From Hyaloraphidium curvatum (taxonomy: Eukaryota; Monoblepharomycota; Hyaloraphidiomycetes; Hyaloraphidiales; Hyaloraphidiaceae), in assembly GCA_025558095.1 (NCBI GenBank), contig JAIVFI010000013.1:620001-684000 (forward strand): 64,000 nt of DNA, written 5' to 3'. The translations under genes were made by a program, and so were the position numbers. The number at the start of each line of letters is the position of its first letter. Position 1 is the stretch's first letter. Under the pieces are notes generated by a model. The model was not told the DNA's origin and did no database searches. It saw only the letters and a list, made by a program, of their open reading frames with translations. Positions 9,522 to 56,037 of the stretch are shown here, in pieces.

Positions 9522-11697
9522 TCAGCACGCCCACGCCGCCAGCACCCGATCCGCCGCGGCCTGCACCTCCAGGAAGCTCTCCCCCTGCTTGGCGTCGTCC
9601 CACCGTGCCAACGCCGCGCGGATGCCCAGCGGGAACAGCTCCTCCTCCGCCGCGAACGCTGTGCTACCCGCTGAGATGCCCGAGTTGGACGATGCCGAGG
9701 CGGCGAGGATGAAGGAGGCGGAAGCGCCGGGGAAGGACGGGGACAGGGGGGGAGGGGGGGAGGGGTGGAGGAGCTCGGCGGCGGCGGCGCGGAACTCGTC
9801 CGCCACGAGGCGGGCTGTCCGAATCGGCGATCGCAAGGTCAGCACGCGGTCCTCGAGCCCGGCCGGGGAGAAGCCACCCACCGACGCCCCCGTGCCGCGC
9901 GCCCCACGCCTCCAACCACCCCTCCGCCGTCTTCACGTCCGCCGCGAATTCCCCCGGATCCCCCTCCACCGTCCCCACCCGCCCCATGAGCCTCCTCCCC
10001 GCGAGCGCCAGCGCGCCCGCCCTCACGACGTGCTGCACCGCATCGTGTCCGAAACCCCTCCCGCCGGCACTGCGCAGCGTCCGCATGAACAAGGCCGCGT
10101 CGGCCAGCACCCCCGCGAACCCCGGCGCGGTCCACAGCCTTGCATCGTTACCCGCCGCGGGCCTGCACCCCGCCAGCAGCGCGTCCATCCCCCCCGCGGC
10201 CGCGCACGCCGCCAGGCCCAGCGCCGCCGCCGCGTGCCCCGGATGCGAGAACGGCCTCCCCGCGTCGGCGAGGAACCCCGCCGCGTCGCCCCGCGCCAGC
10301 GCCGCCGCGTGCGGGTCGGGGAACGCGGGGGCGATCGACCGCCCGAGGGCGGCGAGGAGCGCGGAATGCGCGGCGTGCGCGCGCTCGTCCGCGTCGCGCT
10401 CGGCGTCGGGGAGGGCGGCGGCGCGGAGGGCGTCGACGCCCTGCGCGCGCGCGAATTCCGCGAGGCGGCAGCGCAGGGCGCCGTACAGCGCGGCGAGCAG
10501 GCGGAGCGACATGTGCGACGCGAGGCGGGAGAGCGCGGGGGAGACGAACTGCGCGGCGAGCGCCGCGCATGACTCGGGCCGGGGGTCGGCGAGGAAGGGC
10601 GCGGGGCGGACGGCGGCGGGCGGCAGGGGGAGGAGGGAGTGGGCCAACGGCGGGTCGGGGTGGTCGAAGAGCGAGTCGTGGTGCGGGAGCGGGATGTAGC
10701 CGTCGTCGAAGTACGTGGCGTGCGGGCGGCGGTGGCCCTGCAGGGCGAAGGAGCTGCGCGCGTGGGGGGGTGGAGGCGTCAGCGCATGCCCCACCGCGCC
10801 GCATCCCGCCGAGAGCCACCCACACGTCCAGCGACGCCACCAGGATGTACGTCCTCAGCATCATCTCGTTCTCCACCCACTCCTCCGCACCCCCGGGCGC
10901 CGCCAGGTGCGCGAACCTCAGCGTGCCCTGCGGCGGCCGGGGGAGCATCCTCTCCGCCGCCGCCGCCGCGGTCCTCAGCAGCGCCCCCGCCCTCGGCGCG
11001 TGGCCGTGCGGCGCCAGCGCGTGCACGAGCAGGATCGATGCCTGCGCGGCTTCGAGGTCCGTCATTCCCGGGGTCGGGGAGCCGGGGTTGTAGGAGGAAA
11101 AGACGAGCGCGCAGGCGGCGTCGCAGAGCGCCGCCGAGCGCAGGATGCGGTCCTCCTCCGGCAGCCCTGCGGCATGCAGGATGCCGCAGGCGGCCATCGC
11201 TAAAGCCAGTGCCTGCGGCGGCTGGCGGTAGATCGTGGAGGGGGAGCAGAGGGCGACGTCGAAGGTGGCTCTGTGGACGATTGGGAGCGAGGGGTGCAGG
11301 GAGGCCCAGAAGGTGGTCAGGCCGAGGTCCGCCGAGGCTGGGGAGCGCCGAGGTCCAATAGGAAATTGATCCGGAGGAGGTCAGTCAGGGGAGAAGGGCG
11401 GCCGCCGAGGCCGGCCCACCTGCGAGGTCGCTCCCCGTGCCGCCGGCCGCCTCGTCCTTGACCTCCCTCCGCGCCTCCTTCCGCTTCTCATCCCTGGGCG
11501 GCGGCGGCGCCGGCGACCCCGAATCGCCCTCCGCGGCGTCCGACGACCCGCTCGACGACAGCGCGCGGCGCCACTCTGCCCTCGCCCTCCTCGCGTGCTT
11601 CCGCGGCTCGCACGCCCGCTGCAGCTTCCGGCACCGCTCGCACGCCCCCGCTCCCGGCTGGAAGTGGCACTTTTTACGGTGCTTCCAGCACGAGGTG
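9522..11697 (-). CDS. Zn2Cys6 fungal transcription factor
   Basis: Exons found at 11697-11420, 11337-10824, 10753-9882 and 9814-9522, with introns starting GTGGGC, GTGGGT and GTGGGT; all phases agree. The first listed exon carries most of a binuclear zinc cluster: CWKHRKKC, then CERCRKLQRAC. Its first Cys would be made only if the missing upstream exon ended in TG, so the true N-terminus is unresolved; the leading exon should lie between 11698 and 12165. Later exons encode the fungal-specific regulatory domain, including LTTFWASLHPSLPIVHRATF, ALALAMAACGILHAAGL and LVASLDVSFALQGHRRP, then ending LAAWAC. Proteins of this class bind CGG-type sites and control metabolism genes. It is divergent from the LRR-kinase gene. 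Confidence 0.75.
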
Positions 11698-12165: not shown

Positions 12166-13479
12166 ATGGCGGTCCCTTGCCGGCGGCCGCTGCTGTTTGC
12201 GGCGGGTTTGGCCGTCGCCCTGTTTCTGCTCCCGCGGGGCGGCTGCCGCGTGGCCGTGACGGTGCTGCCCGACGGCCTGCGGGCGCTCGACCTCTCGGGG
12301 TGCGGCCTGAGCTCGCTGCCGGCGGCGGCGCTGGACCTCCTGCGGCGCGACCGCGATGTGGCCGTGCTGTACGCGTCGGGCAACCGGCTGTCGGCCCTGC
12401 CGGACCTGTCGGCCACCGGCGTCACCCGCCTCGGCCTGCGCGGCAACAAACTGGCCGGCCCGCTGGACTGCTCGCGGCTCCCTCCCGCGCTGGAGCACCT
12501 GATCCTGACGGACAACGCGCTGACTTCGATCCCCGAGGACTGCGAGGCCAAGTTCCGCCGCCTGAAGAAGCTCATGCTCGCGCGGAACGGCCTCAGGCGC
12601 TGGCCGGACATCCGAACGCCGAAGCTGGAGCTCGTCCGCCTGGCGCAGAACGATCTGCGGGAGGTGCCGCGCGCGCTGCTGGACCGGAGGAAGGCGCCCG
12701 AGCTGCGGTGGCTGTCGCTGGGGAGCAACCCGTGCCGCCCCCTGCCTCCCAACCCGCTCGCCTCCCTCCCGCCCAAATCCCTGTCGGACGTCTGCCCGAA
12801 CGGCACCCAGGAGCCCCTGGGCAAGGGCACCAGCGGCACCGCCCTGCGCTGCGGCACCCGCGTGGTCAAGCGGTTCGCCGGCCTCTCCTCGGACGGCGAC
12901 AGGGCCTACGAAGCCGCCGCCACCGCCCTCGTCCCGCACAACCCCTCCCTCCTCCCACCCACCGCCAGCGTCGACCGCGGCGCCGCCTTGGCGTTCCCTT
13001 TGGTCGCAGGGAAGCCCGCCGCGAAGCCGCCCTCGGCGCGGACCGTCTCGCGGGACGTGTACCCCCCGTCCGCCCAGAGGATCCCGCCGGGGGAGGTGGC
13101 GGCGATGCTCCGTTCCCTCTCGGACGGCATCCGCGCGCTGCACCTCGCCGGCGTCGTGCACGGCGACGTCTACGCGCACAACGTGCTCCTCGTGCCCCCC
13201 TCGGGCAACGACGGATGGCGCGCGGTGCTGATCGACCTCGGCGCCGCCACCCTCACGTCGGGCCTGGACCCGGAGGAGAGGAAGGCGCTGGAGAACCTGG
13301 ACTGCAGGGCGTTCGGGACGATGGTATGGGAGTGGGCGGGGCATCTGGCGGAGGAGGGGGGAGGGAAGGAGCTGAGGAAGGAGGTGGAGGGGATGGATCC
13401 GTGCGGCAAGGGGAAACACGGGGAGGGAAAGAGGAGGGGGAAGCACGGGGAGAGGAGGGGGAAGCACGGGGACGATTGA
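12166..13479 (+). CDS. Signal-anchored LRR protein with protein-kinase-like domain
   Basis: A single-exon frame of 437 residues. It starts with a signal peptide or anchor (RPLLFAAGLAVALFLLP). Residues ~35-205 hold leucine-rich repeats, for example LRALDLSGCGLSSLPAAAL and LEHLILTDNALTSIP. A kinase-like domain follows: a Gly-rich loop LGKGTSGTAL, a lysine in TRVVKRF, the catalytic loop VVHGDVYAHNVLL, and VLIDLGAAT where DFG is usual. The region after DLG is short, so the C-lobe is incomplete by normal standards. It ends in Lys/His/Gly/Glu repeats. Topologically the kinase part would sit on the same side as the repeats unless a later membrane span exists, and none is seen. It could be a secreted or lumenal kinase, or a pseudokinase. 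Confidence 0.7.
   Translation: MAVPCRRPLLFAAGLAVALFLLPRGGCRVAVTVLPDGLRALDLSGCGLSSLPAAALDLLRRDRDVAVLYASGNRLSALPDLSATGVTRLGLRGNKLAGPLDCSRLPPALEHLILTDNALTSIPEDCEAKFRRLKKLMLARNGLRRWPDIRTPKLELVRLAQNDLREVPRALLDRRKAPELRWLSLGSNPCRPLPPNPLASLPPKSLSDVCPNGTQEPLGKGTSGTALRCGTRVVKRFAGLSSDGDRAYEAAATALVPHNPSLLPPTASVDRGAALAFPLVAGKPAAKPPSARTVSRDVYPPSAQRIPPGEVAAMLRSLSDGIRALHLAGVVHGDVYAHNVLLVPPSGNDGWRAVLIDLGAATLTSGLDPEERKALENLDCRAFGTMVWEWAGHLAEEGGGKELRKEVEGMDPCGKGKHGEGKRRGKHGERRGKHGDD
13413..13473 (+). repeat. Short tandem repeat encoding GKHGE units
   Basis: Roughly three imperfect 21-nt units (ggggaagcacggggagagga type) at the 3' end of the LRR-kinase frame. They encode repeated R-G-K-H-G-E units. Units differ by single bases and by a Gly-Lys insertion, as expected from slippage. 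Confidence 0.6.
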
Positions 13480-54528: not shown

Positions 54529-56037
54529 ATGGAGCAGCTGCCCGATGGAGCACGGGACGAGGGCGGCGTCTCCCAACCTGAACCTCCGGCCGCGGGCACC
54601 GCTACTAAATCGAATCCCTCGCCAGTAGCCGATGAGGTTGACATCGAGTACAGGGTCTATCCGACGCGCTGGTTCGCGCTGGCTGCCCTGATGCTCCTCA
54701 TGATTTCGAGCTCCACTGCTTGGAACTCGTTCGCACCGGTCGCGGAACGCGCTGCCGAGTACTATGGCACAACGACTGCCACGATCAATTGGATGGCACT
54801 CGACATGTACCTCTGCTTCGTCGTCACGGGCCTCCTTTCTTCGTACATTATCGACACTCGAGGCCTGAGAGTGGCCTTCCTCATAGCTTCCGTCTTCACC
54901 TGCCTCGGTCTGTGGACGAGGTATCTCGGCACTCTGTCTCCCGATCGCCACACGGCCCTTGCGGTTGGTTTCCTCGGCCAAACACTCTGCGGCCTCGGGC
55001 GGCCCTTTGGCACCGCGAGCACCACCCGCCTTGCCTCGACCTGGTTCGGAATGAGCGAACGGACCTTTGCCAATGCCGTCGCATCGGTGTCACCATCGGC
55101 AGGCGTGCTCCTTGCATCGGCCGCGACGCCGTACATCGTTTCAGAACCTTCCAAAATGCCCACAGCGCTCCTGATTTGGGCGTGCGTGAGCGTCGTTCCG
55201 CTCGTCATGGCCGTTTTCATGCCTGCGAAACCGCCGACCCCACCGAGCCCGTCTGCCAACGTGATGAAGGCTACTACCGCCAGCTCGGTGGAAAAGTGGA
55301 AGATTTCCCTCCGGACCGCGGTGACGAACAAGGACTACATCGTTCTCTGGATCATGATGTCGGGACAGCTGTGTCTCTTCTTCATCTACGTCGTCCTCGT
55401 CTCCTCCGTCATGGGATCGTACGGCTACTCGGCCCAGCAGGCAGGATTTGTCACCGTCGCCGTTATTGCCTGCGGCTGGCTGTCGACGCCCATCGCAAAG
55501 ATCGTGGACCGGACCGGGGGCTGGGTACCGGCCATGCGGGCGCTGCTGATCTTGACGACGGGCGCGTTCGTGGGATTGACGTTGTCGCTGCGACCCGGGC
55601 TGTATCCTGCGATCCTGGTCTGCGCGGGCGTCTTTGGTTTCGTCTCCACGCCCGTGCTGCCCATAGTCTTTGAACTCGGTACGGTGAGCTTACAGCTTCG
55701 CGTTCTCATTCGCTGACGCCCTGCACAAGCCATGGAGTGCACATTTCCCCACCTGCAGCCCGCCATGTCGCAGTACCTCTTCTACTCCGTTGGCTGCCTC
55801 ATCGCCGTGATCGCCGTCCCTCTTCTGGCCAACGTGCAGAACAAGACAATCGTCTTCTGGGTTCTAGTGGGCGTATCTGGGCTCACTGCCTTGCTAGGAT
55901 TGCTTTATCGTGGGAAGACGAAGAGACGGCTTCACGAGACGACGGTTCTGGAGAAGCAGCAGGTGGAGAAGGCCCTTCGGGACCTGAAGGTGGACCAGAA
56001 CAAGGGAGACGAGGGGCCGGAGAGCCATGTAGCTTGA
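54529..56037 (+). CDS. MFS transporter, FLVCR/MFSD7-like
   Basis: Two exons (54529-55678, 55730-56037; 51-nt intron GTACGG...AAG) give 485 residues. About 12 hydrophobic spans are present, starting RWFALAALMLLMISSSTAW. The phrases AEYYG, ATINWMALDMYLCFV and the loop SSYIIDTRGLRVAFL match the FLVCR/MFSD7 class of major facilitator transporters, whose members move heme or small solutes. A long loop sits between spans 6 and 7 (PAKPPTPPSPSANV). The C-terminus is charged and coiled-coil-like. After splicing, FELA-MECTFPHLQPAMSQ restores the tail of the conserved helix 10-11 region. Substrate is unknown. An ATG at 54529 is the first in frame. Confidence 0.82.

Follow-up and report, generated by a model that had tools for sequence, protein, structure and literature searches.

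A bacterial-type leucine-rich repeat kinase with a signal-peptide-like N-terminus in the genome of the fungus Hyaloraphidium curvatum

In the stretch of DNA analyzed here (64,000 nucleotides of contig JAIVFI010000013.1 of Hyaloraphidium curvatum, positions 620,001 to 684,000, referred to below as the window), a single intronless gene encodes a protein that, judged by its sequence, almost certainly belongs to a compact family of bacterial kinases ("leucine-rich repeat-containing protein kinase"). The explanation that we favor, with moderate confidence, is that a bacterial-type leucine-rich repeat (LRR) kinase was gained by the fungal lineage, and that the copy in the window carries a secretory signal and acts extracellularly or in the lumen of the secretory pathway. 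The gene would document that a kinase family of bacteria is present in a fungal genome. If its N-terminus works as a signal, it would also represent a new fungal route to a lumenal or extracellular kinase; with an N-terminus that is nothing but a drifted repeat, this would be an ordinary though diverged bacterial-type gene in a fungus. No paper on the occurrence of this bacterial family in fungi was found. A 2005 paper noted a Ser/Thr kinase with LRRs in Pseudomonas aeruginosa (gi 9948555; PMC1262709), and our guess would be that it is a member of the same family.

The gene is one intact open reading frame of 437 amino acids that ends in a TGA stop and has no internal stops (Table 1). Its GC3 is 0.94 versus 0.75 in the same frame of the 600 bases upstream, on which basis the reading frame looks coding. 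The next in-frame methionine after the start is residue 137 and there is no AG acceptor between 12141 and 12309, so that the hydrophobic segment near the N-terminus could not be dropped, with the repeats kept, by starting later or by a canonical splice. A spliced gene model without that segment was rejected on these grounds and because the N-terminal block of the family was not found in any of the six frames upstream of the gene.

Table 1. Features of the LRR-kinase gene and its product, in window coordinates.
Feature	Positions	Strand	Evidence
Whole gene, bacterial-type LRR-kinase family member	12166..13479	+	single exon, ORF, bacterial collinearity, GC3
Signal-peptide-like N-terminus, residues 1-27	12166..12246	+	KD13 hydropathy, HMM, absent acceptor
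Leucine-rich repeats, residues ~34-200 (the family's second and later repeats)	12265..12765	+	Pfam, alignment, model
Kinase-fold domain, residues ~213-411, N-lobe full, C-lobe reduced	12802..13398	+	Pfam, AF2, VIA-align
K235, ATP-binding lysine (VVK)	12868..12870	+	invariant in alignment A1
H332-GDVYAH-N339 catalytic loop, family signature HGDVYAHN	13159..13182	+	invariant columns H332, G333, D334, Y336, H338, N339
D357-L358-G359, DLG instead of DFG	13234..13242	+	D357, G359 invariant
Basic repetitive KGKHGE/RRGKHG tail, residues 412-437	13399..13476	+	alignment; pLDDT

Relatives of the window protein were identified at 77 loci in prokaryotic genomes, distributed over the Pseudomonadota, Bacteroidota, Cyanobacteriota and Chloroflexota, and nearly all of them have the same order of parts and the same length. 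The collinearity with the bacterial proteins spans residues ~31-389 of the window protein, with a best E-value of 1e-39. Motifs common to the family occur in both parts, namely LILTDN in the repeats and T/S-S-D-G past the lysine strand, and further ones are PP...SRDVY ahead of the C-lobe and HGDVYAHN as the catalytic loop. The LRR kinases of Shewanella, Pseudoalteromonas, Methylobacterium and Hymenobacter are representative in having this order, length and catalytic loop and no membrane span; the window protein differs from them in its signal-like start, its basic tail and its much greater divergence. The initial annotation had compared the protein to the LRR receptor kinases of plants and animals, a comparison that gives way to the bacterial family, with which the repeat-plus-kinase unit is collinear. 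The LRR receptor kinases of plants and oomycetes resemble the window protein in joining LRRs and kinase in one chain with a signal at the start, but they have a membrane span between the repeats and a cytosolic kinase, and the window protein has none. Inspection by eye of the ORF lists around 14 bacterial loci revealed no conserved gene neighborhood that might hint at function. A scan of viral contigs, carried out with a viral origin in mind, yielded no relative, and the partial matches to defence systems in PADLOC (mad6, PD-T4-6, etc.) were through the general kinase fold only and were not read as pointing to a role in defence.

The repeats of the window protein matched LRR_4, LRR_8 and LRR_1 in Pfam. 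The kinase part matched Kdo (32.4 bits, cut-off 21.3) and Pkinase_fungal (25.6 bits, cut-off 24.1), while the score for Pkinase itself (21.2 bits) was below its cut-off and an NCBIfam scan gave matches only far under cut-off. An AlphaFold2 (AF2) model built with 46 family sequences had a mean pLDDT of 87.6, and in structural comparisons with VIA-align the best PDB match of the kinase part was TBK1 (Z 15.2 over 198 residues), followed by TNNI3K, RIP3 and BRI1, with IRAK4 also among the best (model residues ~196-416). The kinase fold, as a predicted one, is confirmed by the model and by these structural matches. The neighbors named after TBK1, together with a general TKL-like fold, are what would be expected of a separate ancient eukaryotic LRR kinase, similar to the receptor kinases, whose likeness to the bacterial proteins arose by convergence or deep common descent. 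We consider such an origin highly improbable: LRR and kinase are collinear with the bacterial proteins and share with them the idiosyncratic LILTDN, a TSDG-like SSDG, PP...SRDVY and HGDVYAHN, a combination that argues for one family and not for convergence.

The catalytic set of the window protein is complete (K235, E249, H332-G333-D334, N339 and D357-L358-G359), and the lysine, both aspartates, the asparagine and Gly359 are invariant in the 46-member alignment. Bacterial members L018, L021, L022 and L075 have DLG in the alignment as well. Since bacterial relatives have the same compact C-lobe, its small size is a trait of the family. The retention of the catalytic residues argues for kinase activity, and the window protein is probably an active kinase. 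The initial annotation had described leucine-rich repeats, a kinase-like domain with the lysine, HGD and Asn kept and DLG for DFG, and a short C-lobe, all of which were recovered here, and the structure check that it proposed for completeness of the C-lobe returned the full N-lobe and reduced C-lobe listed in Table 1.

Where its relatives have an N-cap and a first repeat, the window protein starts with MAVPCRRPLLFAAGLAVALFLLPRGGC, in which an n-region containing RR is followed by a hydrophobic core at residues 9-23 (LLFAAGLAVALFLLP). The 13-residue Kyte-Doolittle (KD13) mean of this segment is 2.74, compared with no more than 1.79 in the family members examined, and of 643 open ATG starts counted across the window only 5, that of the gene itself included, reach this value. 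A 15-residue core is more in keeping with a cleavable signal than with a membrane anchor, and by the -3/-1 small-residue rule cleavage would likely occur after C27. Beyond residue 35 the best 19-residue hydropathy mean is only 1.19 and there is thus no second membrane span. The signal-like start and the lack of a span between repeats and kinase had both been recognized at the outset; a later span, a different start and a non-kinase structure had been named beforehand as findings that would count against that description, and none of them occurred. Cysteine makes up 2.3% of the window protein, which lies within the family range (mean 2.0%, maximum 3.3%), and NGT at 212 is the only N-glycosylation sequon. 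Neither feature therefore points to a broader adaptation to the secretory lumen.

The principal competing interpretation of the N-terminus is that the protein is a cytosolic member of the family and that its first leucine-rich repeat degenerated into the hydrophobic stretch, the strand having become hydrophobic by drift. The distance from the initial methionine to the second repeat is 41 residues, one of the commonest values in the family (most often 41 or 44-45), the AF2 model has a short strand at residues 18-21, with low confidence, and neither the sampled bacterial relatives nor the second family member in this genome, described below, has a signal-like start. The N-cap (TLxxLxxGxLxG) and first repeat that are common in members have no counterpart in the window protein, although we do not take them as family-defining, and since the remainder of the protein matches the family throughout, we class it as a diverged member. 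A profile (HMM) of the family's N-terminal block scored -2.1 bits on the window protein, with 1337 of 2000 shuffled sequences as good, and it scored 8.4 bits on the second fungal copy, whose own block was eligible for the building of the profile. A residual first repeat beneath the hydrophobic stretch was rejected, its profile signal being no better than that of the shuffles. Also against a drifted repeat is the 15-residue uncharged hydrophobic run after RR, which is typical of signal peptides, whereas the strands of LRRs keep polar positions. On balance, the cytosolic interpretation is rather unlikely. The features of the sequence suggest instead that the window protein enters the secretory pathway, which we regard as fairly probable, and a lumenal location is plausible.

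At its other end, the window protein has its basic tail where family relatives have the last helix of the C-lobe and an Arg-Pro motif (alignment), and pLDDT in the AF2 model is below 50 from residue 416 onward. The C-terminal Arg-Pro helix is common in members and absent from the window protein, but it was not taken as family-defining, and bacterial members L018, L022 and L052 likewise end early. A frameshifted version of the family C-terminus was sought and dismissed, as nothing family-like is present in the other frames. At the DNA level, the coding sequence finishes in a short near-repeat rich in G, AGGAGGGGGAAGCACGGGG, which encodes the KHGE/RRGKHG tail (window 13399-13476, + strand). The basic tail may lower stability or may serve in binding.

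A second family member is present in the same genome (G000:C1:144478-145965); it too is intronless and has the same architecture, but its N-cap, first repeat and C-terminus are all complete and its N-terminus is not hydrophobic. The window protein thus differs from it in having a signal-like start and in missing the first repeat and the complete C-terminus. From its sequence the second copy looks cytosolic, and having such a copy in the same genome makes a change of location directly testable. A family protein from Shewanella (L007), used as query, matched the fungal genome at length in exactly two places, all other matches covering one domain only: the second copy (C1:144610-145929, 45% identity, E 2e-77) and, with 37% identity and E 7.5e-36, the window gene. 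The window protein and the second copy are 35% identical to each other. The contigs that carry the two genes are fungal, given that 74 Fungal_trans matches were identified in the genome, one of them adjoining the window gene on its 759-kb contig.

In phylogenetic trees the window protein has an end branch of about 6.5-7.7, and the trees cannot place it among the bacteria. A joint clade of both fungal copies was not rejected (p-AU 0.387), and as such a single acquisition followed by duplication and two separate acquisitions both remain compatible with the data. The very long end branch would also suit a decaying duplicate under relaxed selection, in which the last helix of the C-lobe was lost to a simple-repeat tail and which has no function today, as would the basic repetitive tail and the lack of a family C-terminus in any frame. 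We judge this improbable, because the frame, with its GC3 of 0.94, is open throughout and neither the catalytic residues nor the family signature have been lost, although the sequence has diverged strongly elsewhere.

We therefore return to the acquisition of a bacterial-type kinase as our preferred explanation. The gene would have passed from bacteria into the fungal lineage long ago; this direction of transfer is the most likely one because the family is broad in bacteria, the sampling of eukaryotes consisting of this genome alone. The repeat solenoid runs straight into a kinase with a minimal C-lobe, and by analogy to other proteins with LRRs the repeats would most likely dock a protein partner, with the kinase then phosphorylating that partner or itself. 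The N-cap and first repeat of the window copy may have been replaced by, or have drifted into, a signal peptide, which would direct the protein into the secretory pathway to work in the lumen of the ER or Golgi, in the cell wall or in the medium, while the second copy would have remained cytosolic.

If the signal works, a lumenal or secreted location would be held in common with the Fam20/VLK secretory-pathway kinases, from which the window protein differs in that its HGD...N...D(L)G loop is the one found in the bacterial family and that it is fused to repeats; no match in sequence to these kinases was seen. The initial annotation had proposed a comparison with Fam20/VLK-like kinases. The catalytic loop does not look Fam20-like, HGDVYAHN being that of the bacterial family. 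There was no Fam20 match among the Pfam matches of the window protein, and the absence of Fam20 from the structural neighbors listed excludes nothing. The most far-reaching version of our explanation, in which an acquired bacterial LRR kinase has one cytosolic copy and another that became an active secreted or lumenal kinase when a signal peptide took the place of its first repeat, giving extracellular phosphorylation an origin independent of Fam20/VLK, is put forward only tentatively and is more doubtful than the explanation as a whole.

Several other observations were made in the window and the genome. On the minus strand, the Fungal_trans (PF04082) match adjoining the gene (window 11177-11320) is just above cut-off and marks a transcription-factor gene that is probably divergent from the LRR-kinase gene; a Zn2Cys6-like reading made by eye around 11.6-11.7 kb of that strand had no Pfam match. 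Strongly hydrophobic N-termini were also found in the ORF at 55156-55765 (+ strand) and in two minus-strand ORFs with starts 17935 and 18465 bases in from the window's right end, and these ORFs probably encode membrane proteins. A separate protein kinase gene, L005 (G000:C29:555333-558485; PK_Tyr_Ser-Thr, 101 bits), matches the window protein in the catalytic loop only. Lastly, two pairs of Fungal_trans matches have identical scores (G000:C10:42653-43207 with C51:10831-11385, and C25:4796-5410 with C25:28295-28909), which suggests duplicated or redundantly assembled segments.
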